Shown in pieces: positions 9,575 through 40,332 of a stretch of 64,000 bases of DNA. The stretch covers positions 62,001 through 126,000 of the forward strand of contig NZ_FUYL01000004.1 of the NCBI RefSeq assembly GCF_900167935.1. The letters are read 5' to 3'. Positions within the stretch are counted from its first letter, which is position 1, and each line of letters begins with the position of its first letter. Source of the stretch: Maribacter arcticus (GTDB lineage: Bacteria; Bacteroidota; Bacteroidia; Flavobacteriales; Flavobacteriaceae). The notes beneath the pieces are model-generated. The model saw nothing but the letters and a program-made list of their open reading frames with translations, had not been told where the DNA came from and made no database searches. Both the position numbers and the translations under genes were made by a program.

Positions 9575-9579
9575 GGTTT

Positions 9580-10884: not shown

Positions 10885-10897
10885 GCGGAGAAAGAGG
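10885..10897. repeat. putative distal attachment site (13-bp tRNA-Ser tail copy)
   Basis: GCGGAGAAAGAGG is identical to 18010-18022 and to the 3' end of tRNA-Ser at 40320-40332, in the same orientation. Inside the element, 10911-10920 (ATTTTTCTAA) also matches 18039-18048, as expected of related element right ends. Confidence 0.65.
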
Positions 10898-10953
10898 AGC
10901 TTTACCTCCTATTTTTCTAAAAACACTGTTGAATACCGTGATACTAAAGATGG

Positions 10954-11841
10954 TTAAAATATAAATCGCATTAAAAATTCATTAGTGTTTTTGGCGCTTG
11001 CCAATTCTGTTCTTGTACTTACTTCATAAGCATAGCCTATCATAAGGTGCTTTTTTATAGTAAAGTTCATCAATGCGGCAAAAGCTGCATCTGTCCTATA
11101 GGTAGCACCTATGGCAAAATCACCGTTAAAAGACAACATGGTATTAATGTCTACCGAAACTGGTGCACCACTTACATACCGCACCATAGTAGATGGCTGC
11201 AGCATAAGGTTATTTCCTGAATTTAACATCAAATCATAACCCGCGGTTGCATACACATGGGGCTTAGCTAATGCCGCCGTGACAATACCTTCCTCATTAT
11301 CTGCACGGTCTGTTGATAACAAACGTGGCATTGCTATAGATGCGTACCAGTCATTTACTTTTAATAATGCACCTACCCCTACATTAGGATTAAAATTAGA
11401 AATGGAATTTACACTTGGATCGGTCATAACATTGTAGGTTTCCAAGCCTGAAGTATTCAAATTATAGAAATTTCCACCCGCTTTTAGACCTAAATATAAG
11501 TCCATTGTCTCCGAGAACTTAAGTCGATATGAAAAATCGACCCCAGTAAAAGTCTGGCTTTCTACAAAGGTATTGCTGTTATAAATAGATACTCCCATGC
11601 CAAGGTTATTGCCCAAAGAGGTTCCGAAAGAAACCGCTTCGGCACTTGGAGCATTCTTTATTCCTGTCCATTGTTGTCTAAAACTTGAGTTGACCATTGT
11701 CACCCCATCTACCCCTACATAAGCCGGGTTATAGAAGTTCATATGATACATATAGTTGGTGATTACACCTTCCTGTTGGGCGAACAATGTACCGCTCACC
11801 ATAAAAAGTGCGCCTAAAATAATCTTATTAAATATCTGCAT
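10954..11841 (-). CDS. PorP/SprF family type IX secretion outer-membrane protein
   Basis: About 295 residues from the ATG at 11839-11841 (MQIFNKIILG); the frame is open another 20 codons into the preceding gene, but the signal peptide (IILGALFMVSGTLFAQ) fixes this start. After the signal comes the family's opening (ITNYMYHMNFYNPAYVG) and beta-strand-rich sequence ending in FLMRFIF, typical of an outer-membrane barrel with a C-terminal aromatic residue. SprF-like proteins are known to be needed for export of specific T9SS cargo with gliding-type C-terminal domains, in the SprB/SprF manner. Its gene lies 35 bp downstream of just such a cargo gene, so the two are very probably a cargo and its dedicated partner. 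Confidence 0.9.
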   Translation of the reverse strand: MQIFNKIILGALFMVSGTLFAQQEGVITNYMYHMNFYNPAYVGVDGVTMVNSSFRQQWTGIKNAPSAEAVSFGTSLGNNLGMGVSIYNSNTFVESQTFTGVDFSYRLKFSETMDLYLGLKAGGNFYNLNTSGLETYNVMTDPSVNSISNFNPNVGVGALLKVNDWYASIAMPRLLSTDRADNEEGIVTAALAKPHVYATAGYDLMLNSGNNLMLQPSTMVRYVSGAPVSVDINTMLSFNGDFAIGATYRTDAAFAALMNFTIKKHLMIGYAYEVSTRTELASAKNTNEFLMRFIF

Positions 11842-11876
11842 GCTAATAATGTCTTTAGTTGAAATTAATGGTTTGG

Positions 11877-14800
11877 TTAATTTGAAGTGATATACAACCA
11901 ACCGTCTTGGTCTACTTTACCATCTCCATCAAAATCTATTTGATAGTAATAAGATCCTGCATCTGGTAATTGAGCTCCTAAATCCTTGTAGTGACCATCC
12001 CAAGTATTCTGGTAGTTCTTAGCGGAGTATACTTCTTTCCCCCAGGAATTAAAGACCCTTACGATGGAGTTCGGATAGTTCTCTATATTGAAAATTGTCC
12101 ACGTGTCATTAATTCCGTCACCGTTGGGCGTGAAGGCTTGAGAAACGTTGAGCTCTATAGTATCGCATATATCGCCTAGGCCGTCTTTGTCCCTATCCTC
12201 TTGCCCAGGATTATAAGCCGAAGGACAATTGTCTAATGAATCTTGAACACCATCGTTATCAGCATCCTTTTGTGATTCAGAACAGCCTTGGATATCCACA
12301 GCTTCATCTTCTGGTGTATTTGCACATTTGTCTTCTGCATCATTTACACCATCAAAATCTGTATCTTTTTGAGTATCTGAACAGCCATTGGCATCTACGG
12401 TCTCACCTGCTTGAGTATCCGGACATACATCCAACTCGTCATTTACCCCATCACCATCTGCATCCAAGTTTGCATCGAAAGGAAAGGCATCTTCGGTATC
12501 TGGAATACCATCATTGTCATCGTCGGTATCGGCATTATCGCCCATACCATCACCATCATTATCGGCAGTTTCTGTATTATCTAACGGGAAGGCATCGTCG
12601 GCATTCAAAACACCATCACCGTCAATATCGGCATCGGTGTTATCACCGGTGCCATCACTATCGGTATCTATATCTTCTGTACCATCTAATGGGAAGGCAT
12701 CATCGGCATTCAAAACACCATCACCGTCAATATCGGCATCGGTATTATCACCGGTACCATCACCATCTGTATCTGTATCTTCTGTACTATCTAATGGGAA
12801 GGCATCGTCGGCATTCAAAACACCATCACCGTCGATATCGGTATCGGTGTTATCACCGGTGCCATCACTATCGGTATCGATAGCTTCTGCACTATCTAAT
12901 GGGAAGGCATCATCGGCATTCAAAACACCATCACCATCAATATCGGTATCCGAATTATCACCGGTTCCATCTCCATCAGTATCTGTATCTTCTGTACCAT
13001 CTAATGGGAAGGCATCATCGGCATTCAAAACACCATCACCGTCAATATCGGCATCGGTATTATCTCCAGTTCCATCACTATCGGTATCGGTATCTTCTGT
13101 ACCATCTAATGGGAAGGCATCATCGGCATTTAAAACACCATCACCGTCGATATCATCATCGCACACATCACCAAAAGCATCATTGTCTAAATTAGCCTGA
13201 TCTGCATTGCTTGTCATAGGGCAATTATCAACATCATCTAGGATACCATCACTATCTTGATCGTAACTAGAACAATCTTTACCACCATCTGTAATGGTCC
13301 AACCATAGGTTGTTGCCAATTCATTTCTACCAGTTTCCCCATAACAATACACACTATTACCACCACTAAAGGTAATACCAGTAGGTATCTGTGTTTCTCC
13401 AGCATCTAGCGTACTCCAGCCATTTAATATTTTATCATAATTCTCTGGAGATAAGGTTACTCCAGTAAACATATTGGTAAGACCTCCTCGCCCACGGCGG
13501 CCACCACCTATGACACTACTTATATTCCAGGAACCAAGATCTTGATTAAAAGAAGTCGCTCCATTGAACATTTCATTCATATTGTTCACATTACTTACAT
13601 CCCAAGAACCAATATCTTGATTAAACGCCGTAGCTCCTTTGAACACATAACTCAAATCTGTGACATTACTCATGTTCCAAGAACCAATGTCTTGATTAAA
13701 AGCAATTGCACCATCAAACATACTAGACATACCTTGTAAGCTCGTTAGATTCCATAAGCTAATGTCTTGATTAAAAGAAGTTGCAGATCTGAACATCCAA
13801 TTCATACTACCTACATTACTAACATTCCATGAACCAATGTCTTGGTTAAAAGAAGTTGCTCCATCAAACATAGAATACATAGCAGTAGCACTACTAACAT
13901 CCCAAGTGCTTATATTCTGATTAAAAGACGTTGCACGGTTGAATAAATTACCCATTTCGGTCACGTTGCTTACATCCCAACCACCAATATCTTGATTAAA
14001 AGCAGTTGCTCGATAAAACATTTGGTTCATAGTTGTCACGGTACTCACATCCCAATTATTAATATTACCATTAAAAGAAGCTGCCCCATCGAACATTGAG
14101 TTCATATTGGTTACCAATGAGAAGTTTGGGATATCTGTAGCATTAACACTTGTTAAATTTATGCAGTCACTAAAACTATGTTCCATAGAGGTCCATTGTT
14201 GTGTACCCCATTGCTCTATCGATAAGATTTTTTCATTATCTCTTGTTCCTATATTCCAATAAAAATATATCCTAGGAAAATCGCCTTTAATGGCCACCGT
14301 ATAGGTGCCTGTAGTTCCATAATCGTGGGTGATATCACCTGCAACTCCAAAATCATCGAAGGTGCCATCGTTATCCCAATCTACATCATAACTATAGCCC
14401 GTACCTGTTGTTGGTATGGTTATAGATGTGGTATTGGAAGTTCCTGGATTATCTGTTTTCCAGGTGGTGATAAAAGAAATTCCAGTACAGTCCAAGCCAC
14501 TATCCGTAATAGTCCAACCATAAGTTGTTACCAAGTCATTTCTAGCTGCTTCCCCATTACAATATGCACTGTTCCCGCCACTAAAGGTAAGACCAGAAGG
14601 TATCTGTGTTTCCCCAGTATCTAAAGTGTTCCAACCTCTTAAAATAGCATCATAATTTATCACAGATAAGGAAACGTTATTAAACATAAAATTTATATCT
14701 GTGGCATTACTCAAATCCCAAGTACCAATATTTTGATTAAAAGCAGATGCTTCTCTAAACATGCCATTAAAGTTGAATACATTACTGACATTCCAAGCAC

Positions 14801-17126
14801 TTAAATCTTGATTAAAAGTAGCAGCACCATTGAGCATATTACTTATACTATTTACACTACTTACGTCCCAAGTACTAATATCTTCATTAAAAGCTAATGC
14901 CCCTGCGAACATATTGTTCATATTGGTAACCAAAATAAGGTCTGGGGAGTCGGTGGCATTACCTACTAAATTGGTACATCCATAAAAACTATTTTCCATC
15001 GATGACCATTGCTGGGTTCCCCATTGCTCAATGGATACAATTTTGTCCTTGTCTCCACCTTTACTGAAATATATCCTCGGAAAATCGCCTTTAATAGCCA
15101 CCGTATAGGTGCCTGTAATTCCATAATCATGGGTGATATTACCGGTAACTCCAAAATCATCGAAGGTGCCATCGTTTTCCCAATCTATGTCGTAGCTATA
15201 GCCTGTGCCTGTTGTTGGTATGGTTATAGATGTGGTATTGGAAGTTCCTGGATTATCTGTTTTCCAGGTGGTGATAAAGAAATCTGTTTCGTTACAAGCT
15301 TGTCCACCATCTGTGATAGACCAACCATAGGTGGTTGCCAAGTTATTTCTGGCAGATTCACCGGTACAATACGTGCTAGTACCGCCATCAAAAAGTTGAT
15401 TGACCGGTATTCTAGTTTCTCCAACATCCAAAGTACTCCAGCCTATCAATAATGAATCGTAATTTGATAGTGATAAAGCGATACTTCTTAACATTCCATC
15501 CATCCTGGTAACATTGCTCACATCCCAACTACCAATATTCTGATTAAATGAAGTGGCACCAAAAAACAAACCGTTCATAAAGTTTACATTGCTTACATCC
15601 CAATTTCCTATGTCTTGATTATAACTAGAAGCTCCTCTAAACATATTACCCATATTGTTCACCGAATTGAGATTAGGAATATCTAATGCATTCCCTTCTA
15701 GATTAATGCAACCAAAAAAACTACGAAACATAGAGGTCCATTGCTGTGTGCCCCATTGTTCAATAGATAAAATTTTGTCTTTATCTCCTTCGTTGTTAAA
15801 ATAGATTGTTGGGAAAGCCCCTTTAATAGCAACTGTATAGGTGCCGGCAGTACCATAATCATGGGTGATATTTCGTGTAATCCCAAAATCATCGAAGGTG
15901 CCATCATTTTCCCAATCTATGTCATAGCTATAGCCTGTGCCTGTTGTTGGGATGGTTATAGAAGTAGAATTGGAGGTTCCTAGATTATCTGTTTTCCAGG
16001 TGGTGATAAAGAAATCTGTTGGGTTACAAGCTTGTCCGCCATCAGTAATGGTCCAGCCATAGTTTGTTGCCAATTGATTTCTGGCAGCTTCCCCATAACA
16101 ATATTTATTTTTACCGCCATGAAAATCAATATTGATTGGTATCTTGGTTTCACCTGTATCCAAGGTGCTCCATCCGTTTAACAAACTGTCATAGTTATCA
16201 ATTGATAATGATAAAATGTTACCAAAAAGTATATTTACCATATTAGTCACATTACCAACATCCCAGCCCCCAATGTCTTGGTTAAAGGATTCTGCGAAGG
16301 CGAACATAGAATGCATACGCGTTACCTTACTCACATTCCAACCCCCAATGTCTTGGTTAAAATTTCTTGCGTCTGAGAACATATAATCCATCGTCGTTAC
16401 ATTCCCGACATTCCAACCCCCAATATTTTGGTTAAATTGCTCCGTAGATGAGAACATACCGTCCATACTAGTTACCTTACTTACATCCCAATTCCCAATA
16501 TCCTGGTTAAAATTAAACGCGGCACCAAACATATCACGCATATTGGTTACATTACCTACATTCCAATTTCCAATGTTCTGGTTAAAGGAATCCGCTAATA
16601 AGAACATGCTACTCATGTTGGTCACATTACTTACATCCCAGTCCCCAATGTCTTGATTGAAAGGTGTAGCCTGAAACATTCCAGACATATTGGTCACCAT
16701 AGAAAGGTCTGGTATATCAGATGCGTTTCCATTTAAATTCCTACAATCAGCAAAACTACGCTCCATAGAGGTCCATTGCTGGATGCCCCATTGTTCAATG
16801 GAAAGTATTTTTTGTTGATCGCTATTAAAACCAAATGTAATATGCGGAAAATTGCCTTTAATGGCCACCGTGAAAGTACCTGCAGTTCCATAATCGTGAG
16901 TAATATTGCCGGTAACTCCAAAATCATCGAAGGTGCCATCGTTTTCCCAATCTACATCATAACTATAGCCTCCACCCATAGTTGGAATGGTTATAGAAGT
17001 AGAATTGGAGGTTCCTGGATTATCTGTTTTCCAGGTGGTGATAAATTCACCTTGTGCTAGTATACTTCCAAAATTTAGGATGCATAAAACAAAAATGAAT
17101 AGTAATTTAAAGTTTGGTTTTTTCAT
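11877..17126 (-). CDS. giant BspA-like/thrombospondin-3 repeat surface protein with T9SS C-terminal domain
   Basis: 1749 residues. After a signal peptide (ending ILAQ, residue 25) come four cassettes beginning FITTWKTDNPG: each has a PKD-like segment (YDVDWENDGTFDDFG), then BspA-type DUF285 repeats of the form MFxxxxxFNQDIGxWDVSNVTNM, then a closing piece with ETQIP and YGWTITD. The cassettes start near 17043, 16009, 15277 and 14473. Next come calcium-binding thrombospondin type 3 repeats (DxDxDGxxDxxD), including six units with a 105-bp period, and finally a type B gliding-type C-terminal domain (QAFTPNGDGINDTW to the end). It should be exported by the T9SS and held on the surface as an adhesin or binding protein; the ligand is unknown. 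The porP-like gene follows 35 bp downstream. Confidence 0.9.
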   Translation of the reverse strand: MKKPNFKLLFIFVLCILNFGSILAQGEFITTWKTDNPGTSNSTSITIPTMGGGYSYDVDWENDGTFDDFGVTGNITHDYGTAGTFTVAIKGNFPHITFGFNSDQQKILSIEQWGIQQWTSMERSFADCRNLNGNASDIPDLSMVTNMSGMFQATPFNQDIGDWDVSNVTNMSSMFLLADSFNQNIGNWNVGNVTNMRDMFGAAFNFNQDIGNWDVSKVTSMDGMFSSTEQFNQNIGGWNVGNVTTMDYMFSDARNFNQDIGGWNVSKVTRMHSMFAFAESFNQDIGGWDVGNVTNMVNILFGNILSLSIDNYDSLLNGWSTLDTGETKIPINIDFHGGKNKYCYGEAARNQLATNYGWTITDGGQACNPTDFFITTWKTDNLGTSNSTSITIPTTGTGYSYDIDWENDGTFDDFGITRNITHDYGTAGTYTVAIKGAFPTIYFNNEGDKDKILSIEQWGTQQWTSMFRSFFGCINLEGNALDIPNLNSVNNMGNMFRGASSYNQDIGNWDVSNVNFMNGLFFGATSFNQNIGSWDVSNVTRMDGMLRSIALSLSNYDSLLIGWSTLDVGETRIPVNQLFDGGTSTYCTGESARNNLATTYGWSITDGGQACNETDFFITTWKTDNPGTSNTTSITIPTTGTGYSYDIDWENDGTFDDFGVTGNITHDYGITGTYTVAIKGDFPRIYFSKGGDKDKIVSIEQWGTQQWSSMENSFYGCTNLVGNATDSPDLILVTNMNNMFAGALAFNEDISTWDVSSVNSISNMLNGAATFNQDLSAWNVSNVFNFNGMFREASAFNQNIGTWDLSNATDINFMFNNVSLSVINYDAILRGWNTLDTGETQIPSGLTFSGGNSAYCNGEAARNDLVTTYGWTITDSGLDCTGISFITTWKTDNPGTSNTTSITIPTTGTGYSYDVDWDNDGTFDDFGVAGDITHDYGTTGTYTVAIKGDFPRIYFYWNIGTRDNEKILSIEQWGTQQWTSMEHSFSDCINLTSVNATDIPNFSLVTNMNSMFDGAASFNGNINNWDVSTVTTMNQMFYRATAFNQDIGGWDVSNVTEMGNLFNRATSFNQNISTWDVSSATAMYSMFDGATSFNQDIGSWNVSNVGSMNWMFRSATSFNQDISLWNLTSLQGMSSMFDGAIAFNQDIGSWNMSNVTDLSYVFKGATAFNQDIGSWDVSNVNNMNEMFNGATSFNQDLGSWNISSVIGGGRRGRGGLTNMFTGVTLSPENYDKILNGWSTLDAGETQIPTGITFSGGNSVYCYGETGRNELATTYGWTITDGGKDCSSYDQDSDGILDDVDNCPMTSNADQANLDNDAFGDVCDDDIDGDGVLNADDAFPLDGTEDTDTDSDGTGDNTDADIDGDGVLNADDAFPLDGTEDTDTDGDGTGDNSDTDIDGDGVLNADDAFPLDSAEAIDTDSDGTGDNTDTDIDGDGVLNADDAFPLDSTEDTDTDGDGTGDNTDADIDGDGVLNADDAFPLDGTEDIDTDSDGTGDNTDADIDGDGVLNADDAFPLDNTETADNDGDGMGDNADTDDDNDGIPDTEDAFPFDANLDADGDGVNDELDVCPDTQAGETVDANGCSDTQKDTDFDGVNDAEDKCANTPEDEAVDIQGCSESQKDADNDGVQDSLDNCPSAYNPGQEDRDKDGLGDICDTIELNVSQAFTPNGDGINDTWTIFNIENYPNSIVRVFNSWGKEVYSAKNYQNTWDGHYKDLGAQLPDAGSYYYQIDFDGDGKVDQDGWLYITSN
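12540..13160 (-). repeat. 105-bp tandem repeat inside the surface protein gene
   Basis: The string GGGAAGGCATC recurs at 12586, 12691, 12796, 12901, 13006 and 13111, exactly 105 bp apart. Each unit encodes 35 residues of thrombospondin-3-type repeat. The near identity of units suggests recent expansion or homogenisation, and copy number could vary between strains. Confidence 0.9.
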
Positions 17127-17889
17127 TGGTTGTGATTGGTTATACTAATAAATGATTTGTGAAATTTTATAAGAATAGTTAGGGAATAATCAGCGGGATG
17201 CCGTTTGTATAACAGCTAATAAACCCTATTTTAAAGGGTATATCGCCTTATTATCTTGGAATCAGTGACTAATTTTTAATCCGTTTCAGAATATGTTACA
17301 GCTTAAAGCTAAGGTATGAGCGCAATGATAATTGGGTCGCACTTTAGGTGGTAGGATAATCTCCACATAAATGGCTTGAACGCCATTTAAGATGAAATTA
17401 GACAGGCAATTTCTGAAGTCACGCTCACTGAGCATAACGCTAGGCCTATTGTACTTAATAAGAAATAAGGGCTTAAAAAGGTAACGGGAGATCGAATACA
17501 TAATTCAGAGATTATTGAGAACATGCAAAAATTCCCAGTACATAACCAATATAATTACTGTTTATTGTATTGAATTTTAAAAGAGCACCTTGCCTATCGG
17601 TCAAAATTTCCCTTTGACCCCGCATATCATTAAAAAAATAATGAAATTTGATAACAGAAATAAAAAACAACACTTTTCATTAAAGGAGGATATTGATTTA
17701 CTATCAAAAATGGTTTTATAATACTGGCATCATAAAAGACTGTTTGTAGGTAACCAAAATGTCTATTAGAATGCCTTTAATCATTGCAATTACCTTGTAT
17801 TTACAACAGAAAAAGACGTTGCACTTTTGCAACTAATTAAATAGCAATATTCTATAAAAATTTATTGTCATTTAAAAGTGAATGACAAT
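17127..17889. other. non-coding stretch, possibly integrase decay
   Basis: By comparison with the end beside tRNA-Ser, an integrase gene would be expected here on the minus strand. Only broken reading frames are present, the longest a 71-codon minus-strand frame at 17286-17501 that I do not recognise. I can identify neither an integrase remnant nor an RNA gene. Confidence 0.4.
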
Positions 17890-18022
17890 TGACACCGAAA
17901 CTGCACCTTTTAATTCGTATTTAAATGATAGTATTTGAAACTAAAGGAAATAATAAACCCTGTAAATCAATAATTTACAGGGTTTATATAAATGTATTAC
18001 CACTTATCAGCGGAGAAAGAGG
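17890..18022. repeat. putative attachment site and element end, paralogous to 40200-40332
   Basis: TGACACCGAA at 17890-17899, a perfect 14-bp hairpin at 17954-17986 (TAAACCCTGTAAAT and its complement) and the 13-bp tRNA-Ser tail at 18010-18022. Bases 17891-18022 align without gaps to 40201-40332 (89 of 132 identical by hand count). It is both the end of the distal element and the far attachment site of the proximal one. Confidence 0.7.
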
Positions 18023-18571
18023 AACTATCCAAATTCTCATTTTTCTAACGATTACAGGGGCTAAAACAAACTTGGAAATTTAGTGACACCTAATTAGCCT
18101 CTTTTTAACAAAAGTTTGGGAATTGTGGGTTCTTTTCCTTCAATTTACCTCCAAATTGGCTCATTTGATAACAAACCAATGAGCATCATTCAATATTGAC
18201 CGCACATATGGTGTGTTTTCAATCGATGACAGGAAGTTTTCAAACTCAGATATGAATTTGAAATTGATGCTTAAAGGTTCTGTTCAAAAGATAATGTTTA
18301 GACTATATTTATTTCAGGGACCGAACAAATACTTTCAAATGAAAGTTGTTTGGTTTCTGATAGTCTAGCTATGTATTGAGTAAGAATTGAATAGTTCGTT
18401 TTAAAATGATAGGTTAAAATTTTACTATCCTTTATTTGAACTTTCCTAAACGTAACGATTTTGAATTATGCTCAGCCCGGTTTAACATGAGGAAATCAAT
18501 CAATACAATGTTTTCACATTTATATAAATTTAACTATTAGTTATTATTTAGATACTTTATGAGTAGTTGTA
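18023..18571. other. non-coding right end of the proximal element
   Basis: No gene seen. It holds a near copy of the arm-type repeat at 18084-18093 (TGACACCTAA, one base different). With flanks, AGTGACACCTAATT differs by one base from AGTGACACCGAATT at 40198-40211. The rest is AT-rich with short broken frames. Confidence 0.5.
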
Positions 18572-18609
18572 GGGGTATGAAGCCCATCGGTGTGAAAATG
18601 TACGCTAAG
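18572..18609 (+). repeat. Tn3-family 38-bp terminal inverted repeat (left end)
   Basis: A 38-bp sequence that starts GGGGTATGAAGCCC and ends GTACGCTAAG, the GGGG...TAAG pattern and length of Tn3-family ends. It matches the copy at 20585-20622 at 35 of 38 positions, in the same orientation. Confidence 0.8.
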
Positions 18610-19461: not shown

Positions 19462-20079
19462 CTAAGAAACTTTGGTAATACGTTTGTTTACCTTGGAGAT
19501 TGTGTGTCTAGAGCAACCCAATAGGTTCTGGATGTAATTGTAGCTCTTACTGTCTCTTAATAGTCCCTCGATTTTATTCTGTAATTCAATGTTCTCGGGG
19601 CGACCCTTGTATTTTCCCTGCTGCTTGGCTTTTTGTACCCCTTGGGCTTGTCTACGCCTCCGGTCCTCGTAGTCCTTACGCGCAACTGCCGCGAGCACAT
19701 CGAGCAGCATCGAATTAATTGCCGACAACATTCTTTCGGTAAATTCGTCCGAGCTGTCGATGAGTATGTGGCTCGTGGGAAGATCTAATGAAACGATTTT
19801 GATGCCCTTGTCTGCAATGACCAATTTCAAAGTCTCCCAATCCTTAACGTTCAACCTACTTATCCTGTCAATCTGTTCTACGAGCAGTACATCTCCGAGC
19901 TCCGTAATTTCCAACAACCTAAATAGTTCAGGGCGGTCTAATTTGCTACCAGTCTCGTTTTCCATAAACCAGAAAGAGACTTTGATTCCCTTTTTATCAG
20001 CAAAGTCCGTAAGCTCGTTCTTGGCCCTGTCGGCATCTTGTTCTTTGGTGGATGCCCTTAAATATCCATATACCCTCAT
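19462..20079 (-). CDS. tnpR: serine recombinase, Tn3-type resolvase
   Basis: 205 residues. The N-terminal catalytic domain carries the nucleophile serine in YLRASTKEQ, the EQIDRISR motif and the arginine-rich region (ARKDYEDRRRRQAQGV). The C-terminal 40 residues form a helix-turn-helix (YNYIQNLLGCSRHTISKVNK). It would resolve cointegrates during transposition by recombining res sites. It is transcribed away from the tnpA fragment; the 126 bp between them should hold the res site and both promoters, as in known Tn3-type elements. Apparently intact although its transposase is not. Confidence 0.88.
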   Translation of the reverse strand: MRVYGYLRASTKEQDADRAKNELTDFADKKGIKVSFWFMENETGSKLDRPELFRLLEITELGDVLLVEQIDRISRLNVKDWETLKLVIADKGIKIVSLDLPTSHILIDSSDEFTERMLSAINSMLLDVLAAVARKDYEDRRRRQAQGVQKAKQQGKYKGRPENIELQNKIEGLLRDSKSYNYIQNLLGCSRHTISKVNKRITKVS

Positions 20080-28300: not shown

Positions 28301-31300
28301 TCCTGATGGAGAACAGGAAAGGTCTGTACTATCTAAATCAGAAATAATAAGTTCAGAAAGCGGGGCAGTAACGGCAATGTTTTCCGTTGCCGTACAATTC
28401 GTAGTATTATCCGTTACCTCAATACTATAGGTTCCTTCTCCCAGTCCTGTAAGGGCCAGCGTATTAGCCGTCACTGCTGTACCTGAAAAAGTAGAAGGAC
28501 CCGTTACCGTATAATCATACGAGGTGGTAAATCCGCTCACATTGAAGGTAACTGCTCCATCGGATATACCAAAACAGGTTACATTATTATTAATTTTTCC
28601 TACAGCGGCAATACGGTTTACAGCAGCTATTGTAAAATCTTCTTGAATACTACATCCTTTAGCATCACTGACCCTAAACGTATATGTTCCTGGTTCAAGT
28701 GACGAAAAAGTATTGCTTGTTCCATTGTCAATAGCATTCGCTAAAGGAGCTATGATTTCATAATTAAAAGGAGCGGTACCATCCACGACGGTGACGGTGA
28801 CTTCTGAGGTCAACGCGGGACAAACTGGCTGGGTCGCATTAAATGTTAGGTCACTAGGTTCTATTCGAGGGTCTATTGTAACATCATCGGTAGCAAAAGT
28901 ACACCCATTGGCATCCCTGATAGTAACGGTGTAAGTGCCATCAATTAATCCAGTGAACCTCTCGGCACCAGGTCCAGAGAAGAAATTTACTCCATCTATA
29001 CTGTATTCATAGGGAGCTGTTCCACCTGATACATTTTGTGCCTCTATAATTCCGTCTTGCGTACAGGTATAACCTTGAATCAATACCGCATTCCCGAAAA
29101 GCGCATTGGCCGGTGTAGAAATAGTATGGTATTCAAAATAATCACAAGAAGCACTTCCCTTTCGCTGATTTATAACAATGGCATAATCACCTGCTGGCAA
29201 GCCGGGAAAATAGCCTGATGTATTGGTTGCCAAAGCATTGATATACTCATAATTTTGTTCATCGAATGTGGCTGCATCAAACAAGTAGTAAGTTAGCTGG
29301 TACCCATTACTATTGACAAGATTGAATTCTATTGACCCTGTTGAGTCTCCAAAACATAGTACATTGGTTACCGAAGTAGCATTGTATTCAGCTGCTGGTC
29401 TAAACTCTATGGTCACCATATTGGAAATGGATACACAGTTAAATCTATCGATTACGGCGAATGTATAATCCCCTGGATTTAGAATATCAAATATCTGACT
29501 GGTTTGATACGATGATGCCGGAATATCATTAACGCTTGGGTATGAGATTACGGCTGCACCGTCATCATCTACAAAGGACCAAATAGCATAGGTATGCGGA
29601 GTCTTTCCACCACCGGAATCCATAAGAATATTCCCTTCTTTACAGGTTATGTGTTGTGAAACCCTCGCGATTAAATATAGGTTGTCTTCAACTATAGATA
29701 CCTGTTCAGAATAAGAACAGCCATCATCGGTACGTGCAATAGCGATATAGTTTCCTGGATTCAGGTCGTTAAATGTAAAATTATTGTTTGGTTGGGCAGT
29801 TTCACTGTCCAAAAGTGTTCCTAGCCCGCCGTTAGAACCATCATCAAGCCTAATTTCGTATTCATAATTGGGCTCGGCGTTGTTTATTTGAATATTGATT
29901 GACCCAAAACCAGTACAGCTATTAAGAGCTGCCGAAATTGAGTAATTTACATTCCGTTCAAGGATTCCTATATCGGGAGTACTAAAAATACAGGCTCCTG
30001 CTATTGGAACACTAGAATTATCCAATTGTACGACTTCTACGCGGTATCCTCCATTTTCGCCCGGGTTAAAATCAAAACTTGGTCCGTTGTTCGAACTAAA
30101 GGGTATGATTACCGTTCCACTTATGGCATCTACCAATTGGTAACCATAACCATTGCCCAAGTTGGTAATGGTAATGTTTCCTGGAGAGGTACAAATAATG
30201 TCTTTTTTGTTGTATTGAATATCCAAATCGTTCTGAAAAGCATTGAAATAGAAGCGATTGCTACAGCCATTCTGATAGTTGACAAACAAACGATATTTAC
30301 CAGGGCTATTAAGGGTATAGTTGTTGCCAGAACCAACTTGATTCCAGGTACAGGTCAAATTTTTATTGGCACAGTCGTCCCCAGAGGGACTACAGCTTGC
30401 TTCGTCCAATTTTTGCCATACAATACTTTGGGCATCCAAAATATTCACTTGTAAAAGCCTAGAGTCACTTATACCGCAGAGGAATAATTTAGGAAGCAAC
30501 GCATTGTCTATACTACATTGCACTATTTCTCCAAAAAGGTCATTTGATGGGTCTGCATCATTGTTTACTGTATTGTAATACTCTATTATAGGGTTGGTAA
30601 TGGTTCCTGAACCGTATTGCACTACATTGATGATTTCTTTAAAGCCTTTACACGGATCGGCAACAATTTTGTCCACAATATAGGTACCTTCACCGTTGAC
30701 CAATATGGTACTTGAATCATTATCCGGATCTCCATCGTTCAAAACGGTATCCGTACTATCTATAACATTATTATTGTTATCGTCCCGTACCCAAATATAA
30801 TCGTCAAAATGATCACCCGCATTTAATAAAACATTGGTACCACATAGTTCTACGCTGCGCGTGAAGTTACAGTCAGCAAGATCATCTAAAAGAAAATTGG
30901 TTGCACCGGGCAGCACAAATCCACAATTATCAAAGTCAGATACACTCGGGTCATCTGTAATTATATTGGAATTAATAGCTCCCGCGTAGGTGGAATAGGC
31001 CAAATTTTGTATCAGATCCGTACAAGCATCCACAAAATCAAAACAATTTTCGGCAACCTTCACGCGCATGCGTATCGTATAAATAGGATCTTGTTTATTT
31101 ACGAGATTGTCTGAAATAGTAAAAATCACAGTTCTACTAGGCGCATCATAAGTATAGGTTACGCCTGTGGGAAGCACTAAATTTGCCTCGTCCAATGTAA
31201 CGTTTATGGGGAGTACATCACGTATGGTATAATTTACGGTATCGTCATTTCCTAAATTTTGGAACGAAAGTACATAATCAAGTGTTTGGCCAAGGTTGAC

Positions 31301-32548: not shown

Positions 32549-33091
32549 AGGTTGATAAGGTTTGGGGCCAAACAAAATTGGGGTTCGATTAATTCCTCTT
32601 GAAAAAAATCAATGAAACTCCTTTTTTATGTAAGGTTAAACTTACTAATCTAAAACCTCAATGAATGTTGTGAAAAGTACTATTCGTGTTGTCAAAAGCT
32701 CGGCTGTGTGTTCTTCAACGATACTTTGCAAAAAATGATTTTATAAATTTGGTTAGTAATACAATTTTAAAATGTAAAACAAATTAGAAATACGAATTGT
32801 ATGGTTGCCCCCTTTTGTTGTATAAAATAAAATACGGTTTTACTGTTGATCAAATGGATAGGAACTTTGTGTAAAGGCGATTTCAAATTTTCACAGAAGT
32901 ATCTTGAATATTGCAATTTCCCCATCGCAACTATCTTTCTACCACTACCTTGACGAGAACTTGTTCCATTAGTTTAATGGTTACAGTCCTTCAAAGCCAA
33001 TATTTCAACACCTGTATGTTAGGTTCTAATGAAAGGTAATCGACCGTGATCTCGCTTCAAATTTTATGTAATTTGGTGTAAGTTTTGAACT
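32549..33091. other. non-coding gap between the two large surface protein genes
   Basis: It presumably carries the promoter of the SprB-like gene (minus strand) and the terminator of the upstream gene. I see no small gene, repeat or clear hairpin. Confidence 0.4.
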
Positions 33092-35614
33092 CTAATTCTT
33101 CTTTATTCGATAGGTAATCCTGCTATTGGTAATAACTGTACGCACCCGTACGAAAAGAGTAGCTGCATCTGACGTAAGCGGTAATGCACAGTAATATGCA
33201 GAATTGGAGGTTATTACACGGTATTGATATTTGTTCATGGTAAGTGCTACCGAACTTAATGTCAGAGTCGATGTGTTAGTGCCTAAATAGGTCGCTCCAT
33301 CCGTAAGGTCTGTAAATGTTGCACCCTCATCAATACTTAACTGCCATTGATAGGTGTTCGTATCATTTGCCGATACCGTAAAATTAGTTCCTGAACCATC
33401 AAAAACCGTGACATTGGTCGGTTGGGAATTTATTGAGGGAGCCGCCCCTGATTCTAAATAATCTGCCGTACCGCTTGAATCTGCATCAGTGGGGGCTGTA
33501 TAGCCATCCACTCGATTGGTGCCGGTAACCTGTCCATTAACATCCACAGTCGTAGGCAGCTCGGCCAATATACCGTCATTATTATCATCCGTAAATCCTC
33601 CTTCCAAAACGTCGTTACAGCCATCCCCATCAGAATCCAAGTCAAAATGATTAGGTATACCATCACCATCTACATCCAAGTTGGTACAGATGGAAAACGC
33701 GTTCAAAGAACAAAAATCGGGATCCTGATAATTGGGCATACCGTCGTTATCGGCATCTCCACTTGGGTCGATTCCGTTGGATTCCACTGTATCCAATATC
33801 CCATCATTGTCATCATCAAGATCATCTATATCCCCGACCCCGTCACCATCGTTATCGTTGGAAACCGTAATTGTCACCACAGCGGTATCGCATAAATTCG
33901 AATTGCTGTCATCACAGACTTGGTAGGTAAACGAATCAACACCTGTAAAGCCGGGATTTGGAATATAGGTGAAACTTCCATCAGTGGACAAGGTTAAAGT
34001 TCCGTTCGTCACATCGACCACGGGAGTCGTATTGACTGTCAGTACGTCGCCCGTTTCCAAATCGGTATCGTTCGCCAAAACCCCCTTGGCAGAAATGTTT
34101 AAGGTCGTATTCTCAACCGCATTGTATGAATCCATTACAGCACAAGGACTTGCATTGACACTGATAATATTCGTCGGTTCGGTTGTTGGGCTGCAACCTA
34201 ATAATGGGGCGATGCCCAATTGGTAATCCCCCGGAGTGTCAATTAAAACATTATCCATTCCGACCCCAGATATTTCTGAAAGTCCGTTTGCGGGAAACAC
34301 AACACCTGGGGTCAGGGAATACCAGATATACTCTGCAGTAGTAGAAATAAATTCGGCTTGTAGGGTAAAAGTTTCACCAGAGGCACAGGAATCAAAACTA
34401 CCTGGATCCGTAATGGTGGTATTCACTTGTGTTCCAGCAGCACTACCCAAGAAATCATAGGGCCCTGCGAAATCCTTCAAAGAAGAAGTAAAGGAGGAGG
34501 ATGTTCTGGATTTTGTAAGTATCGCGCTGAATGGGGAGTCACAGGCAGCACCACTTCCAAATAGGGCACGAGGGTCGAAGCCTAACTGCGTAAAATTGAT
34601 ACCAACCTCGGCAAAATAGTCACTGCTATAATTAGCTGTATAACCCGAAGTATTTGTCGTCCCCCAAGGCGGTGCCGCAGTGGAAAGGGCATTTACATTG
34701 TTCAACAAAGCGGCAACCGGAACGATTATTTCCCCATATCCATACGTACTGCCTCCATCGATATTAGAACCCCAGGTAAAGGTCGAAGTCCCACCCGGGG
34801 AACTTCCTGGGTTGAAAATGGAACGATCTACCCATATCCGTATCTCTAAACCGGATACACCGCCACCACCGAAGGCAAAACCGATGACCATGTCGCCGAT
34901 ATTGGTAACATTACCGCTACCGTCAAACGTCCAAGCCGTGTGCCCTTCCTGACTTCCGGAATTGATAAACCCTGATCCGGAAAGTGCGACCTTGGATACA
35001 AAAAGTTCAAAATCTATAAAATGACTCCCCGATGAGGACAAGGTCGAAACCATCATATCTACCCATAGGTCGTCGGTCACGTTAATACCATCCCTACGCA
35101 TATGGACACCTGTATCCACGATATCGGTTTTTGAAGGAACAGAACCACTACCCGCGCCCCATGAGGTGGTTGGGTCATCCCCATTCTTCCCAGAAGTAAA
35201 TATGGTCAAGTCATTTGAGCTTTGGTTGGTATAATCCCTGCCATATCTCGTACTATACCATATATAACCTGAGTTTGAAGCATAGTTGGGAATACTCTGG
35301 CTAAGGTCGAAGGCAATGTTGTTTCCTGCTGCCAATTGGGCAGCATAGCCATTGCTAATGGCGGTGGCTTCATCAATCACTCCAGCGCCTGAAATTCCAT
35401 TATAAAACCAATCGTCTGTAAGTACACCGGAAAGCACATCCCCGGAACGGGTATCCGCTTCGATTCCGAAGTTAGCCCCTACTCCTATTTGTCCATAAAC
35501 CGATCCGGCAACAACTAAAAATATTAGTAAGGAAAATCGCCTAATTAGAACAAGTCTGAAGCACCTTCTAAAAAATAAAAGATTAATGATTTTATTTATG
35601 TTCATTCTATGCAT
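33092..35614 (-). CDS. large secreted protein with cadherin-like and thrombospondin-3 segments
   Basis: 840 residues; a second ATG at 35603-35605 (MNINKII) could be the real start. The signal sequence is long and basic first ([13 protein letters not shown]) and ends at VYGQ. The N-terminal 350 residues are a secreted domain I cannot name. A tandem-85/cadherin-like Ig segment follows ([22 protein letters not shown] to [14 protein letters not shown], roughly residues 495-585). Next are calcium-binding repeats ([32 protein letters not shown]), a further Ig-like part ([14 protein letters not shown]), and a basic tail [16 protein letters not shown]. There is no ordinary T9SS CTD, but I have seen comparable tails end other flavobacterial secreted proteins. 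Divergent from the lipoprotein gene at 35901. Confidence 0.8.
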
Positions 35615-35900
35615 GGTTGGATTTATTTATCGCCATCTCCAAATATTTTCTCGGCCTATATCTTGCAAGATGGGAATTCAACCCTGAATATCGAATTTAT
35701 TGTTGTGAAATTGTTCAACCAAAGGGTGTGCCAATTAAATACCGTTGTATGCACAATAAATATAGAAGTGTGTTTCATCGAAAAATTGAAAAAAATTCAA
35801 TTTTTGGGTAGGGTTTGGAAACCTTTGGTTGTTATGATTAGTAACAAGCTCTTAAAAGTGCAAAACCTACTTATTGATGTTAAACAAAAAATTAAAAATT

Positions 35901-36758
35901 ATGAGATTCAATTTTTTTTCAATTATGCTATTGGCATCATTTGCAATGGTCGTTAGTTGTTCCAATGGGGACGATATGAGCTCTGATACGGGGAAAATGA
36001 CCATATTATTAACCGATGCCCCCTTTCCACACGACTTAGTGGCCGAGGCCAATGTGACCATATTCAAAATAGATGCCCGTAATAAGGACGAAGAAACCGA
36101 TGATTCATTTGTTGTATTAATGGAACAAGAAATTAAGGTAAATCTTTTGGAACTAACAAATGGAATAACCGAAACCTTGGTAAACACTGACGTACCTGTT
36201 GGAACGTATGATTTGGTAAGGGTCTACGTAAAAGGTGTCAATGTGGTTCTTACCGACGGAACTTCCTATAACCTAGATGTGCCCAGTGGAGAACAAACAG
36301 GGATAAAATTGTTTATAAAGCCAGGGCTTACCGTAAACGGTGGACTTAGTGCCGATCTTCTTTTAGATTTTGATGTAAGCCGTTCGTTTGTTGCCAAAGG
36401 CGATAGCAAAGACTTAGCGGGTATTACCGGCTTTAATTTTAAACCTGTTATTAAGGCCAGTAACATGTCCTCCGCCGGTACTTTATATGGCGAAGTCATC
36501 ACTCTAGAAGAAGAAATGGCGGTTTCGCTTGAAGGGGCCCAAGTGTCCATTTTTACCGCCGACACATTGAACACCACTACTTTTACTGATGAAACTGGGG
36601 CCTACATGGTTATGGGCCTTATGGCCGGAAGTTACGATGTAACCGTAGATATTGATGGGTATGGTTCCCAAACCGCCGAAGATGTGGAGATAATCGCTGC
36701 CAATAAAACGTCACAGGATTTTGAACTGATCGTTTCGGAAGAAGCGACAGGAAATTAA
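35901..36758 (+). CDS. DUF4382 lipoprotein with carboxypeptidase-regulatory-like domain
   Basis: 285 residues from the ATG at 35901 (MRFNFFSIMLLASFAMVVSC); nine more open codons precede it, but the lipoprotein signal fixes this start. Lipobox AMVVSC is followed by a short acidic linker. Residues about 24-180 form a DUF4382 domain (GKMTILLTDAPFPHDLVAEANVTI; VRVYVKGVNVVL; LLLDFDVSRSFV; FKPVIKA). The C-terminal 85 residues are a carboxypeptidase-regulatory-like beta-sandwich (LEGAQVSIF, FTDETGAYMVMGLMAGSYDVTVDIDGY). DUF4382 has no assigned enzymatic role; such proteins are thought to bind carbohydrate or act on the cell surface, but this is not established. A strong terminator follows at 36822. 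Confidence 0.85.
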   Translation: MRFNFFSIMLLASFAMVVSCSNGDDMSSDTGKMTILLTDAPFPHDLVAEANVTIFKIDARNKDEETDDSFVVLMEQEIKVNLLELTNGITETLVNTDVPVGTYDLVRVYVKGVNVVLTDGTSYNLDVPSGEQTGIKLFIKPGLTVNGGLSADLLLDFDVSRSFVAKGDSKDLAGITGFNFKPVIKASNMSSAGTLYGEVITLEEEMAVSLEGAQVSIFTADTLNTTTFTDETGAYMVMGLMAGSYDVTVDIDGYGSQTAEDVEIIAANKTSQDFELIVSEEATGN

Positions 36759-37777: not shown

Positions 37778-38194
37778 ATGGATGAAGAATTAAAAAAAGA
37801 GCGATTTGAGAAGCTAGGAATAAAGACTTCGGTAGCGCTACGGTTTCGAAAATTCTGCAAGAAAATGTCAAAATCACAATCCATGACTTTGATACTCATG
37901 TTGGACTTTTTTGAGGAGAATGGAATTTCTCCTGCAGAATCTATGGGACCGCGAATGGAGACCTTGGAAATGAGAATGTCTTTACTTATCAAAAAACGTA
38001 TGAACGGAATGATTGCCATACTAAAGGATATTGAAAAATCTCAGACCAAACCTACAGCGGCAATGTTGTATTCGCTTTTCGAACAAACAGCACCGGTAAA
38101 AAAGCCATTACTAATAGAGAAAAAGTATAGCACAGAAAAAACGCAAGTGCGTTATCGGGAAAGAATTAGTTATAACGAAATGCCCGAGAACTGA
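37778..38194 (+). CDS. BfmA/BtgA family mobilization protein
   Basis: 138 residues. Matches the Bacteroidota BfmA/BtgA pattern: basic helical N-terminus (TSVALRFRKFCKKMSKSQSMTLILMLDFFEENGISP), a hydrophilic helix with KKRMNGMIAILKDIEKSQTKPT, and LYSLFEQ. Such proteins assist a relaxase at the origin of transfer of mobilizable elements. No relaxase gene follows in the window. The stop codon overlaps the start of the next gene (TGATG), so the two are translationally coupled. Plausibly a relic of a former mobilizable element. Confidence 0.8.
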   Translation: MDEELKKERFEKLGIKTSVALRFRKFCKKMSKSQSMTLILMLDFFEENGISPAESMGPRMETLEMRMSLLIKKRMNGMIAILKDIEKSQTKPTAAMLYSLFEQTAPVKKPLLIEKKYSTEKTQVRYRERISYNEMPEN

Positions 38195-38865
38195 TGGAAA
38201 AAGTAAATTACATCATTCACCTAAATGCGGTCTTTGAAAGATTCAACAACGACGAGCGAATCAAACAAGGACATATTACCTTATACCTGGCGTTCTTCCA
38301 GAAATGGAATCGTGAATTCTTCAAAAAGACGCTTACCATCAATAGGCAGTTCATTATGGAAAAAGCAAAGTTCAAGTCAAAAACTACATATCATAATTAT
38401 CTGAAAGATTTGAATGATTGGGGCTATCTAAACTATTTTCGTTCTTTTCACCCGGCAAGAGGTTCAAAAGTGAGGATGCCCATATTTGGGACAACTAGTG
38501 GTACAAGCTCTGGGACACAAGCGTATCAAAAAATGGCCAACAGCGTCCCAGAACCAGGCCAAAATCTGGTACCTTCTTATAAACATAAAACAAAAGAAAA
38601 CTTAAATAAACAGGCCAAGCCAAAAAATGAATTGGCTGTTTTAATTTTTTTTAAAGAAAATAATTGGCCTGAAATGGAGGGTAGAAAATTCTATGCCTAT
38701 TACCATGCGAGAAAATGGAAATTACAAAGGGGATTAAACGTTAGAAACTGGAAATTACAAGCTAAAAATTTTGTCGAAAATGGTTATGAAATAAGACAAG
38801 AAGCGACCACGCCAATTTCTGGCTATCTATCAAACATGAGGAAGAATTATAATGAACCGCTTTAA
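38194..38865 (+). CDS. integrative-element protein of unknown function
   Basis: 223 residues, basic. N-terminal half: HITLYLAFFQKWNREFFKKTLTINRQFIMEKAKFKSKTTYHNYLKDLNDWGYLNY, which reads as a winged-helix-like DNA-binding fold. Middle: low-complexity serine/threonine-rich linker (GTTSGTSSGTQ). C-terminal: NNWPEMEGRKFYAYYHARKWKLQRGLNVRNWKLQAKNF, a motif I associate with proteins encoded beside integrases and bfmA in Bacteroidota elements. It could control replication, excision or transfer, but this is inference from position. Coupled to bfmA by a one-base overlap and convergent with the integrase gene, one base apart. Confidence 0.7.
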   Translation: MEKVNYIIHLNAVFERFNNDERIKQGHITLYLAFFQKWNREFFKKTLTINRQFIMEKAKFKSKTTYHNYLKDLNDWGYLNYFRSFHPARGSKVRMPIFGTTSGTSSGTQAYQKMANSVPEPGQNLVPSYKHKTKENLNKQAKPKNELAVLIFFKENNWPEMEGRKFYAYYHARKWKLQRGLNVRNWKLQAKNFVENGYEIRQEATTPISGYLSNMRKNYNEPL

Positions 38866-38866
38866 T

Positions 38867-40081
38867 TTATTCTGCATACTTTGATCTTAAGATTGCCATA
38901 TCTTTTCCAACTTTCATATCCAAAATTTTAGCATAATGTTGGGTTGTTCTTAAGTTAGTGTGGCCAAGCATTTTGCTTACCGATTCAATAGGCACGCCAT
39001 TGGTTAGGGTAACGGTAGTAGCAAAGGTATGTCTGGCCAAATGAAACGTTAGATTCTTGGCAATCCCTGCCAAAGTTGCAATCTCTTTGATGTAAGCATT
39101 CATTTTTTGATTGCTGAGCACAGGTAAAACCAAATCTTTTTCTTTCAGCAGCTCATTATCTTTGTACTTTTCGATGATTGTTTTAGCGATAGGTAAAATC
39201 GGAATATTACTTCTGGTATCAGTTTTAGAGCGTTTGGTTTTTACCCATTCTTCACCATCTGCACCTAAAACAATGTCACTTTTATTTAGTTTTTTCACAT
39301 CAGCATAGGCTAGACCCGTAAAACAGCAAAAGATAAAAATATCGCGTACTTGGTCAAGCCGCTCCATAAGGAGCTCTAGTTCAATAATCTTTTGAATTTC
39401 CCCTTCGGTTAGAAATTCGCGTTCTACAATTTTTAATTTTCCTTTCCAATGAACAAAGGGGTCTTTATCAATCCAGTCATTTGCATGGGCTATGCGAATT
39501 ATCTTTTTAAAATTGGTGATATACTTAATGGTAGAGTTATGTGCGCAGTTGCGAGTTGTCTTCAAATAGTATTCTAGCCCTGTGATGAACTTATGATCTA
39601 CATCTTGTACAGGTATGTCATTTTTCTTGTATTTCTTCTTTATGAAGGCTGTTACGTGTTTTTTGCAAGTACGATAGCGTTCTGCAGTTCCGGCAGCAAA
39701 ATCTTTTCCAATCAGACTTTCAACTTTGTCATTATGCTCTTGAAAGATATCCAAGAGCAATTTTAAAGTTTTCCCTTTCCCTAGATAAGTATCGCGCAAA
39801 TCGATGGCTGTATATTCCTTCTCAACTCTTTGAAATTGATGTTGAATTAAGTAAATCTTATTTTTAATTACGCCAAGCTCTCGATTAACTTCTTGTGATA
39901 CCATGGAATTACCCAATGCAAGTTGGGTTTTGGAGTTCCATTCACTAGAATGAATTTTTCTATGAATACTACACTCAGCCCTTCGACCATCAAGGGTTAT
40001 GCGCAGATAAATGTTAGCCATACCGTATTCATCGGCCTTACTTTTTTTTACATAAAACAGAAGAGATAGAGAATGTGACAC
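38867..40081 (-). CDS. tyrosine recombinase (integrase)
   Basis: 404 residues with a GTG start at 40079-40081; the N-terminus SHSLSLLFYVKKSKADEYGMANIYLRITLDGRRAEC is the arm-binding segment usual in Bacteroidota integrases, which supports this start over the ATG 20 codons later. A SAM-like core-binding domain follows (about 105-205). In the catalytic domain I see the first arginine region (FCCFTGLAYADV), HLARHTFA with the H-x-x-R pair, LGHTNLRTTQHYAKI with the second histidine and the nucleophile tyrosine. All are intact. It lies 240 bp from the tRNA-Ser 3' end and should catalyse integration and excision there. The start codon overlaps a TGACACCGAA repeat, which suggests autoregulation. Confidence 0.93.
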   Translation of the reverse strand: MSHSLSLLFYVKKSKADEYGMANIYLRITLDGRRAECSIHRKIHSSEWNSKTQLALGNSMVSQEVNRELGVIKNKIYLIQHQFQRVEKEYTAIDLRDTYLGKGKTLKLLLDIFQEHNDKVESLIGKDFAAGTAERYRTCKKHVTAFIKKKYKKNDIPVQDVDHKFITGLEYYLKTTRNCAHNSTIKYITNFKKIIRIAHANDWIDKDPFVHWKGKLKIVEREFLTEGEIQKIIELELLMERLDQVRDIFIFCCFTGLAYADVKKLNKSDIVLGADGEEWVKTKRSKTDTRSNIPILPIAKTIIEKYKDNELLKEKDLVLPVLSNQKMNAYIKEIATLAGIAKNLTFHLARHTFATTVTLTNGVPIESVSKMLGHTNLRTTQHYAKILDMKVGKDMAILRSKYAE

Positions 40082-40210
40082 CGAATAAATTTAAAGTTCT
40101 CTTCAATTTACAAAAAAAACATTAAACGCAACCAATCGTAAGTATTTGTTAATCAATTTGTTAACTTCAATTCGGTGTCAGTTGGAGTAAGCTTTTAAGT
40201 GACACCGAAT
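40076..40210. repeat. TGACACCGAA repeats, putative integrase arm sites
   Basis: TGACACCGAAT occurs at 40076-40086 (over the integrase start) and 40200-40210, with the inverted copy ATTCGGTGTCA at 40170-40180. Further copies are at 17890-17899 and, with one change, 18084-18093. Distribution near both putative ends and nowhere else that I noticed fits arm-type binding sites. Confidence 0.6.
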
Positions 40211-40263
40211 TTGCCCCTTTTTAAATGGTTTTAGATGATGTTATTTGATATCATCTAAAATGA

Positions 40264-40296
40264 AAAACCCTCTAAATCATTGATTTAGAGGGTTTT
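40264..40296 (-). terminator. terminator of tRNA-Ser
   Basis: A 16-bp perfect stem, AAAACCCTCTAAATCA and its complement, with T run on the minus strand, 25 bp past the tRNA 3' end. Its counterpart at 17954-17986 lies at the same distance from the distal tRNA tail copy. Confidence 0.85.
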
Positions 40297-40319
40297 AGCT
40301 TCCGTTTATAGGACTTTCC

Positions 40320-40332
40320 GCGGAGAAAGAGG
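40320..40332. repeat. attachment core within tRNA-Ser 3' end
   Basis: GCGGAGAAAGAGG: one flanking base and the last 12 bases of the tRNA (minus strand), identical to 18010-18022 and 10885-10897. Confidence 0.65.

Follow-up and report, generated by a model that had tools for sequence, protein, structure and literature searches.

Tandem accretion of integrative elements at the 3' ends of tRNA genes has been described for streptococcal arrays of integrative and conjugative elements (ICEs) and integrative mobilizable elements (IMEs), for which a review sets out IME-CIME tandems (CIME, cis-mobilizable element) with a three-step history (PMC5704250). Two further points of reference concern cargo: Flavobacteriia have a gliding adhesin locus, SprB-SprF, and proteins with type B signals bind partners resembling PorP (PMC9143113), and carriers of PARCEL repeats include Psychroflexus torquis and a Flavobacteria bacterium (PMC2996958). 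In this work we describe a region of the Maribacter arcticus genome, 10885-40319 of a 64,000-nt stretch (GCF_900167935.1, NZ_FUYL01000004.1, positions 62,001-126,000, forward strand; the whole stretch is termed the window), which we read, with a probability of roughly 0.87, as two related elements inserted one after the other at the 3' end of a tRNA-Ser(TGA) gene.

As in the IME-CIME tandems, an intact element lies beside the target gene, an integrase-less and decayed one lies behind it, the attachment (att) cores are shared, and insertion appears to have been stepwise. The locus differs from those tandems in its Bacteroidota host, in an outer element that lacks one arm site in addition to its integrase, in a cargo of giant adhesins of the type IX secretion system (T9SS), and in that each element here seems to bring a replacement tRNA terminator. 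The outer cargo resembles the SprB-SprF locus in joining a giant protein with a type B signal to a PorP-like partner. Closest to the inner element are those of Maribacter sp. ACAM166 (G018) and a second Maribacter genome (G011), which share with it an 83% identical integrase, the same core, similar arms and the genes orf138 and orf223. Unlike the cargo found here, that of these sister elements includes restriction and defence functions, namely type I restriction-modification in G018 and type IIG restriction-modification with a DRT2-like reverse transcriptase in G011 (nine proteins of the two were scanned, some of them restriction or defence). No title among the literature matches listed concerns Maribacter tRNA-Ser islands or PorP/SprF cassettes on mobile elements, which is no proof of absence. 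The arrangement as such is already known; as far as we have looked, the host group, the adhesin cargo (SprB-type, plus PARCEL with a SprF-like partner) and the shared arm geometry are new. The base-resolved ends document extra giant type IX surface proteins kept in a tRNA-Ser hot spot of a marine Bacteroidota genome, at which sister islands carry restriction and defence genes, and the 13-bp core, the terminator-like hairpin and 24-bp sites near +111 and +72 suggest a simple rule for telling probably mobile from dead islands in Flavobacteriaceae.

Attachment cores at tRNA-Ser(TGA)

The 13-bp tail of the tRNA-Ser gene, GCGGAGAAAGAGG, occurs in exact copies at 10885, 18010 and 40320, each on the plus strand, and a scan of the whole genome (4,211,145 bases) returned these three exact copies and no other, all within 10885-40332. 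The features that define the site are as follows.

10846-10877, no strand assigned: native tRNA-Ser terminator hairpin, displaced to the far end of the array and marking the original chromosomal junction
10885-10897, plus strand: outer att core, far end of the outer element
18010-18022, plus strand: middle att core, far end of the inner element and tRNA-side end of the outer element
40320-40405, minus strand: tRNA-Ser(TGA), its final 13 bp (40320-40332) forming the innermost att core

We place the original chromosomal junction at 10885 because the flank adjacent to this core resembles both the empty site of another Maribacter genome, G014 (79% identity over 68 bp, core included), and the corresponding flank of G018 (80% identity over 88 bp). 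The region thus presents the two features by which a tRNA-gene genomic island is recognised, a direct repeat of the tRNA 3' end and a difference between occupied and empty sites. A further shared sequence, ATTTTTCTAA, lies at 10911 and 18039, with a third copy at 50294, beyond the element region. A near-copy of the core at 10707, with two mismatches, was considered as a fourth, decayed core; no arm match lies behind it, a shuffled window averages 0.49 matches at up to two mismatches, and it was left as chance.

Attachment arms, hairpins and the inner integrase

Inward from each of the two cores nearer the tRNA lies an attachment arm, and behind the inner arm an integrase gene.

17786-18009, minus strand: outer-element attachment arm, nearly full length, with a hairpin (17953-17987) and a weak arm site (17888-17911) and without an integrase behind it
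40081-40319, minus strand: inner-element attachment arm, with a hairpin (40264-40296) and an arm site (40198-40221)
38867-40081, minus strand: tyrosine integrase, 404 aa, with arm-binding, core-binding and catalytic Pfam domains in an unbroken frame

When 17891-18022 and 40201-40332 are aligned without gaps, 89/132 positions are identical, or 76/119 (64%) with the core removed, against a mean of 34.9 and a maximum of 56 in 5000 dinucleotide-shuffled pairs; the best matches of the two ends elsewhere in the window reach 56 for one and 54 for the other. A first-pass annotation of this DNA, made from the letters, had reported the three identical tails in one orientation, the gapless 89/132 alignment of two equally long ends, a hairpin in each, a common sequence at the right ends (here ATTTTTCTAA) and an intact integrase adjoining the tRNA; the alignment proved right to the base and the remaining observations were reproduced, the integrase keeping its three Pfam domains and the residues of its family.

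The arms are members of a wider family. Aligned over the 253 bases that run from the core in the direction of the integrase start, 39 rows, some of them one locus named twice, display a common layout of core, some 22 bases, hairpin, AT-rich stretch and a 24-bp arm-type site near +111, followed in most rows by an inverted second site and then by the integrase start. A profile of this arm, from which the rows of this genome had been taken out, matches under nhmmer both the inner arm (40332-40081) and the outer one (18022-17786, 237 bp, E=1.3e-25); its rows had been aligned together with both arms of this genome before these were removed. Model R1, whose alignment included the inner arm but not the outer, recovers the latter as well (E 2.0e-19); this model holds primary sequence only, as RNAalifold gave no base pair from which a structure-based RNA model of the arm could be built.

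The two hairpins stand at almost equal distances from their cores, and a strong hairpin within 100 bp of the core is common to occupied and empty sites alike: by a simple stem score, 55 of 60 stretches, non-independent sites of which some are one locus under two names, lie above the 95th percentile of 300 random stretches of the window. We infer that these hairpins act as tRNA terminators, and the pattern suggests that an island provides the tRNA gene it occupies with a new terminator.

Relatives at the same site

The genus was represented by 36 Maribacter genomes, this one counted, with one genome per species and contig breaks in some relatives; besides G018, the handles used below include G019 (Maribacter sp. 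HyVt-319) and G013 (Maribacter litoralis). The five best full-length matches to the integrase in other Maribacter (83, 83, 77, 77 and 58% identity) all adjoin tRNA-Ser(TGA), the last of them, in G016, at a core with one mismatch, and the more distant integrase loci examined lie at other tRNAs or at none. G019 has an additional 59% match that covers residues 251-402 only. Among 43 integrase loci from a scan of named genomes, in which G018, G019 and G013 appear a second time, tRNA-Ser(TGA) lies 237-249 bp upstream in 28; the others adjoin tRNA-Ala (2), tRNA-Asp (1) or tRNA-Pro (1) or have no tRNA within 600 bp (11). The exact core is present in 28/36 genomes of the genus, some copies standing away from a tRNA, and two in-line cores are found 7.1-32.7 kb apart in eight other genomes (G003, G004, G005, G007, G011, G018, G034 and G035), a count that leaves out G013 and G019, whose second core is on another contig, and the fragmentary G021, whose cores are 2.9 kb apart.

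Two of these relatives bear directly on the history of the site. In G018 the left-flank genes found here (orf258, HK554, RR221, orf240 and EEP) also stand beside the far core, from which the same core sequence bounds a 21-kb island of its own, with different content and no giant gene there. G014 presents an empty site, a single core followed by a native-type terminator. It is the agreement of the arm profile, the same-site integrases, the G018 flank with its different island and the G014 empty site that leads us to read the region as two stacked insertions, the succession of related elements that the first-pass annotation had proposed; the empty site it had suggested seeking in related genomes was found in G014.

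The five genes at 5005-10392, which lie beside the site here and in G018, are not beside the G014 core, and a relative of orf576 stands about 250 bp from the latter. An older third element at 5005-10392 was also considered and is ruled out, as the native-type terminator directly adjoins the 10885 core. A second architecture, in which a distantly related integrase lies at the far end of the island, occupies tRNA-Ser in G034 (L063), G035 (L064), G007 (L071-L072), G005 (L073-L074) and G004 (L075-L076). The 7.07-kb island of G034 seems to back onto the arm of another element, which indicates that tandems recur.

Proposed order of insertion and predicted mobility

In the history that we propose, the first event would have been the insertion of an ancestor of the outer element at the 3' end of tRNA-Ser(TGA), which restored the tRNA tail and set behind it a terminator brought by the element. 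The integrase, the far arm site and whatever mobilization genes this element had would afterwards have disappeared, presumably by deletion, so that what remains between its cores is a surface-protein cassette composed of a PARCEL giant protein with a type B signal and its PorP/SprF partner. Later, a second element of the same site specificity, probably an IME, may have entered the restored tRNA end, bringing a SprB-like adhesin and pushing the first element outward; the proposed order takes the element next to the tRNA as the newer and the one outside it as the older. Every such insertion would copy the 13-bp core and set a new terminator hairpin behind the tRNA, which would account for the native terminator now lying 29 kb away beside 10885.

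Ready excision by its integrase is predicted for the inner element, 18010-40319, and for no other part. Arm-type sites were scored with a matrix of 25 rows, the inner arm among them, which was built from one type of arm; its background over 400 random 230-mers of the window has a mean of -8.4 bits, with 95% below -0.7. The site of the inner element near the tRNA scores 41.0 bits (its own row being in the matrix), and its far end carries a second, high-scoring site.

18082-18105, minus strand: far arm-type site of the inner element, scoring 34.6 bits (offset 72)

The inner element has mirrored arm-type sites at +111 and +72. The near, tRNA-side site of the outer element is weak (19.4 bits), and no arm-type site was found within 230 bp of its 10885 end (best -3.4 bits), where the PorP/SprF gene ends 56 bp from the core, at the expected place of the far arm site. 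Among 19 other far ends examined (5 and 14), 14 score 12.6-41.8 bits at offset 71-73. In the first set of five, G011, G018, G013 and G019 possess the offset-72 site (16.7-35.7 bits), the far ends of G013 and G019 being identical over the scored stretch, and G003 is without it. The 14 further far ends come from 397 family genomes and match one pattern, which favours the common type. A score of 12.6-41.8 bits at offset 71-73 is reached by 10 of them; G176 (-2.4) and G413 (-7.3) have their best match at this offset but with a low score, and G096 and G098 are without a site. The offset-72 site is a feature of the family.

Several findings weigh against our reading. Five of the 19 other far ends are likewise without a good site, and the matrix may miss a type of site. 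The outer far end is only weakly like those of relatives, with AGCTTTACC in place of the common-type AACTAWCC after the core; what chiefly identifies it as an element end is consequently the exact core, together with the shared ATTTTTCTAA and the native terminator displaced to its side. The label of IME for the inner element is incomplete, since family scans of 11 inner proteins, which covered the longer frames, recognised no relaxase or conjugation protein. Related pairs of giant protein and PorP genes are present at eight loci in seven other Maribacter, none of them adjoining tRNA-Ser. Finally, our forecast of excision must be set against a Streptococcus agalactiae composite that excises whole despite very different att sites, as reported in PMC5704250.

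This last case also favours the alternative that survives best, which concerns present mobility and is compatible with a history of stacked insertions: that the composite 10885-40319 is the living unit, both parts being moved by the inner integrase, with the outer element truly cis-mobilizable. Identical cores do stand at both outer limits, and the first-pass annotation had suggested that the outer part might still be moved through 10885 and 40320. We were unable to uphold that suggestion, because the 10885 end is without the arm-type site carried by the inner end and by most relatives, and the tRNA-side site of the outer element is weak; we consider a living composite unlikely, though with enough in its favour to be kept in view.

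Far less probable is one island of 29 kb in which the end next to the tRNA became duplicated internally. The presence of one integrase for the whole region and of T9SS giant proteins in both parts would agree with such an origin, but the arms are 64% identical outside the core, the outer arm is closer to that of G016 (80% over 96 bp, 83 bits) than to the inner arm (74% over 136 bp, 67 bits), and the inner far end carries an arm site of its own, from which we conclude that the arms are not recent copies of each other.

The outer element and its surface-protein cassette

The outer element (10885-18009, 7.1 kb) consists of two genes, one arm and two cores.

10954-11901, minus strand: PorP/SprF family T9SS outer-membrane protein, 315 aa (PF11751, 9e-60; TIGR03519 above cut-off)
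11877-17126, minus strand: giant surface protein, 1749 aa, with PARCEL/DUF285 and thrombospondin type 3 repeats and a T9SS type B sorting domain

The giant protein matches PF03382, PF02412, PF13585, TIGR02167 and TIGR04131. Other frames of at least 100 aa in the 7.1-kb segment are antisense inside the giant gene and were discounted. A six-frame hmmsearch of 10885-18022 at maximum sensitivity found no integrase remnant (best E 0.27), and tblastn gave short, chance-level matches there. The first-pass annotation had described an outer element that lost its integrase and now holds one giant surface protein with its export partner; both points stand, the nearly full arm running up to the expected start of an integrase. 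Integration and transfer genes are absent from the segment and two att cores bound it, as in a CIME, which however has arm-type sites at both att sites; the far site being absent here and the near site weak, we use the label CIME-like remnant and not CIME. On this reading the segment is what is left of a decayed element, enclosing a giant protein with PARCEL repeats and the PorP/SprF protein that accompanies it. The outer pair combines a T9SS type B substrate with an adjacent PorP/SprF gene; the inner adhesin has the sorting domain only. From what is known of these families, both giant proteins are likely to be exported by the T9SS, since each has a type B signal and a PorP/SprF gene adjoins that of the outer one.

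Among the related pairs in other Maribacter, those of one G014 locus, G018 and G019 share one neighbourhood, and those of G033 and G020 share another, on which grounds the pairs at these five loci look like settled chromosomal genes. Other details do not agree with that picture: both G033 and G020 have a tRNA-Leu gene some 300 bp from PorP, G034 has an integrase-like frame (23% identity to the 404-aa integrase) at a distance of about 0.5 kb from its PorP gene, and a tRNA-Met lies about 2.7 kb away in G013. A contig end interrupts the second G014 locus, and the nearest PorP relative (79%) is located there. In this genome the cassette is missing at both places checked, beside the genes that flank the two G014 loci. 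The pair resembles a presence/absence cassette, found at different chromosomal places in different Maribacter and cleanly absent at two of them here.

The weakest alternative, that the cassette is ordinary chromosome beside a tRNA and the 10885 core a chance or ancient copy, can draw on these eight loci, five of them in two common neighbourhoods, but is highly improbable given that an exact 13-bp core adjoins the displaced native terminator, that the cassette is missing at the site in G018 and G014, and that this genome is without it at two places where a relative has it. For the same reasons, namely the absence of the pair at this site in G018 and G014 and at the two other places here, the relatives do not show the giant-protein genes as a syntenic backbone away from tRNA-Ser, the outcome that the first-pass annotation had named as speaking against successive insertion.

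The inner element

The inner element (18010-40319, 22.3 kb) has its own site-specific integrase and both att arms, as an IME should, and is probably an IME. In the order of the sequence it further contains the following.

19462-20079, minus strand: serine resolvase, probably a Tn3-like remnant (PF00239)
20206-20661, plus strand: DUF4158 open frame (PF13700)
20836-21379, minus strand: ParE-like toxin and ParD-like antitoxin genes (PF05016 above cut-off; PF03693 20.9 against a cut-off of 21)
22379-32575, minus strand: giant SprB-like adhesin of 3398 aa, carrying a T9SS type B sorting domain (PF13573, PF13585, TIGR04131)
33092-35614, minus strand: 840-aa protein with bacterial Ig/cadherin-like domains
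35874-36758, plus strand: DUF4382 protein (PF14321)
37778-38194, plus strand: orf138, with a mobilization protein domain of the BfmA/BtgA family (NF041200, 106 bits; cut-off 24)
38194-38865, plus strand: orf223, which accompanies orf138 in sister elements

Across 37 aligned integrases, this one included, the H, R and H of the HLARH motif, together with LGH and Y, are invariant (37/37), and the L of HLARH is kept in 34/37. The position in FTGLAYAD that we take to be the equivalent of the first catalytic arginine of other tyrosine recombinases is A in 34/37 and S in 3/37, so that its substitution is a trait of the family and not a defect of this copy. A phage origin of the integrase was rejected: tblastn against phages, plasmids lying outside the search, gave 116 records, all below 60% identity, with the top row at 41%. 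The orf138/orf223 module is also present in G011, G018, G013 and G019 and at part of the named-genome loci.

Over its first 400 aa the adhesin shares 70-72% identity with copies in G006, G018 and G022, which lie in a common gene neighbourhood with a PorP-family gene directly downstream. Unlike those copies, the inner adhesin is on a mobile element, is shorter (3398 aa versus frames of 3661-4895) and has no PorP/SprF gene adjacent to it. The next copies are 42-55% identical, mostly 50-55%, and include one in this genome (55%) that reaches a contig end.

Near the serine resolvase and the short DUF4158 frame is a 38-bp direct repeat of 92% identity (18572-18609 and 20585-20622). The DUF4158 frame is presumably a fragment of the N-terminus of a Tn3-type transposase, and resolvase, frame and repeat are probably the wreck of a Tn3-type transposon within the inner element.

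Integrase loss and stacking elsewhere in the family

Of 41 further arms with scores higher than that of the outer arm, 40 were examined for integrase loss; G303:C4, which has an integrase match adjoining, was omitted. The source list, with stricter filters and few candidates per genome, makes the count incomplete; two of the 40 arms end at a contig border, and some of the 40 lie elsewhere than at tRNA-Ser. Of the 38 comparable arms, 24 are followed by a full or nearly full integrase and 14 are without a full one, with none within 2.16-2.24 kb in nine and only an N-terminal piece in five. Many of the integrase-less arms are probably scars, because several of them adjoin genes that, judged by eye, are apparently chromosomal; the names given to such neighbours, like the name anmK, are provisional.

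G241 has, on one contig as in the window, an integrase gene of 58% identity about 10 kb from an integrase-less arm. An 11-kb core-bounded stretch of G003 retains only about 34 integrase residues. G249 holds a 44-kb stretch from tRNA-Ser to a far core, with a strong arm (168 bits) and a far site of 41.8 bits, and in this one-contig genome no integrase match exceeds 43% identity (the middle 20 kb of the stretch being searched).

Integrase-less tRNA-Ser elements could be more than debris and make up a recurrent class whose attachment arms persist and on which the integrases of visiting sisters act in trans to move it. We regard this as a doubtful possibility, for which G249 is the best hint on account of strong arm sites at both ends and the lack of an integrase match above 43%. 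If true, large adhesin or defence cassettes would circulate among marine Flavobacteriia without a recombinase of their own.

In G096, two in-line integrase-less arms lie 43 kb apart (L272 4005 and L271 377), the far end of one being the next core; this is apparently another stacked array, with no recombinase in the parts read. In four relatives that lack a full integrase (L210, L217, L225 and L230) the surviving N-terminal piece breaks off around residue 82-103, close to where the arm-binding domain ends, and such pieces are perhaps due to chance or perhaps encode a stand-alone arm-binding protein. L210 also has a separate frame that resembles a recombinase C-terminus.

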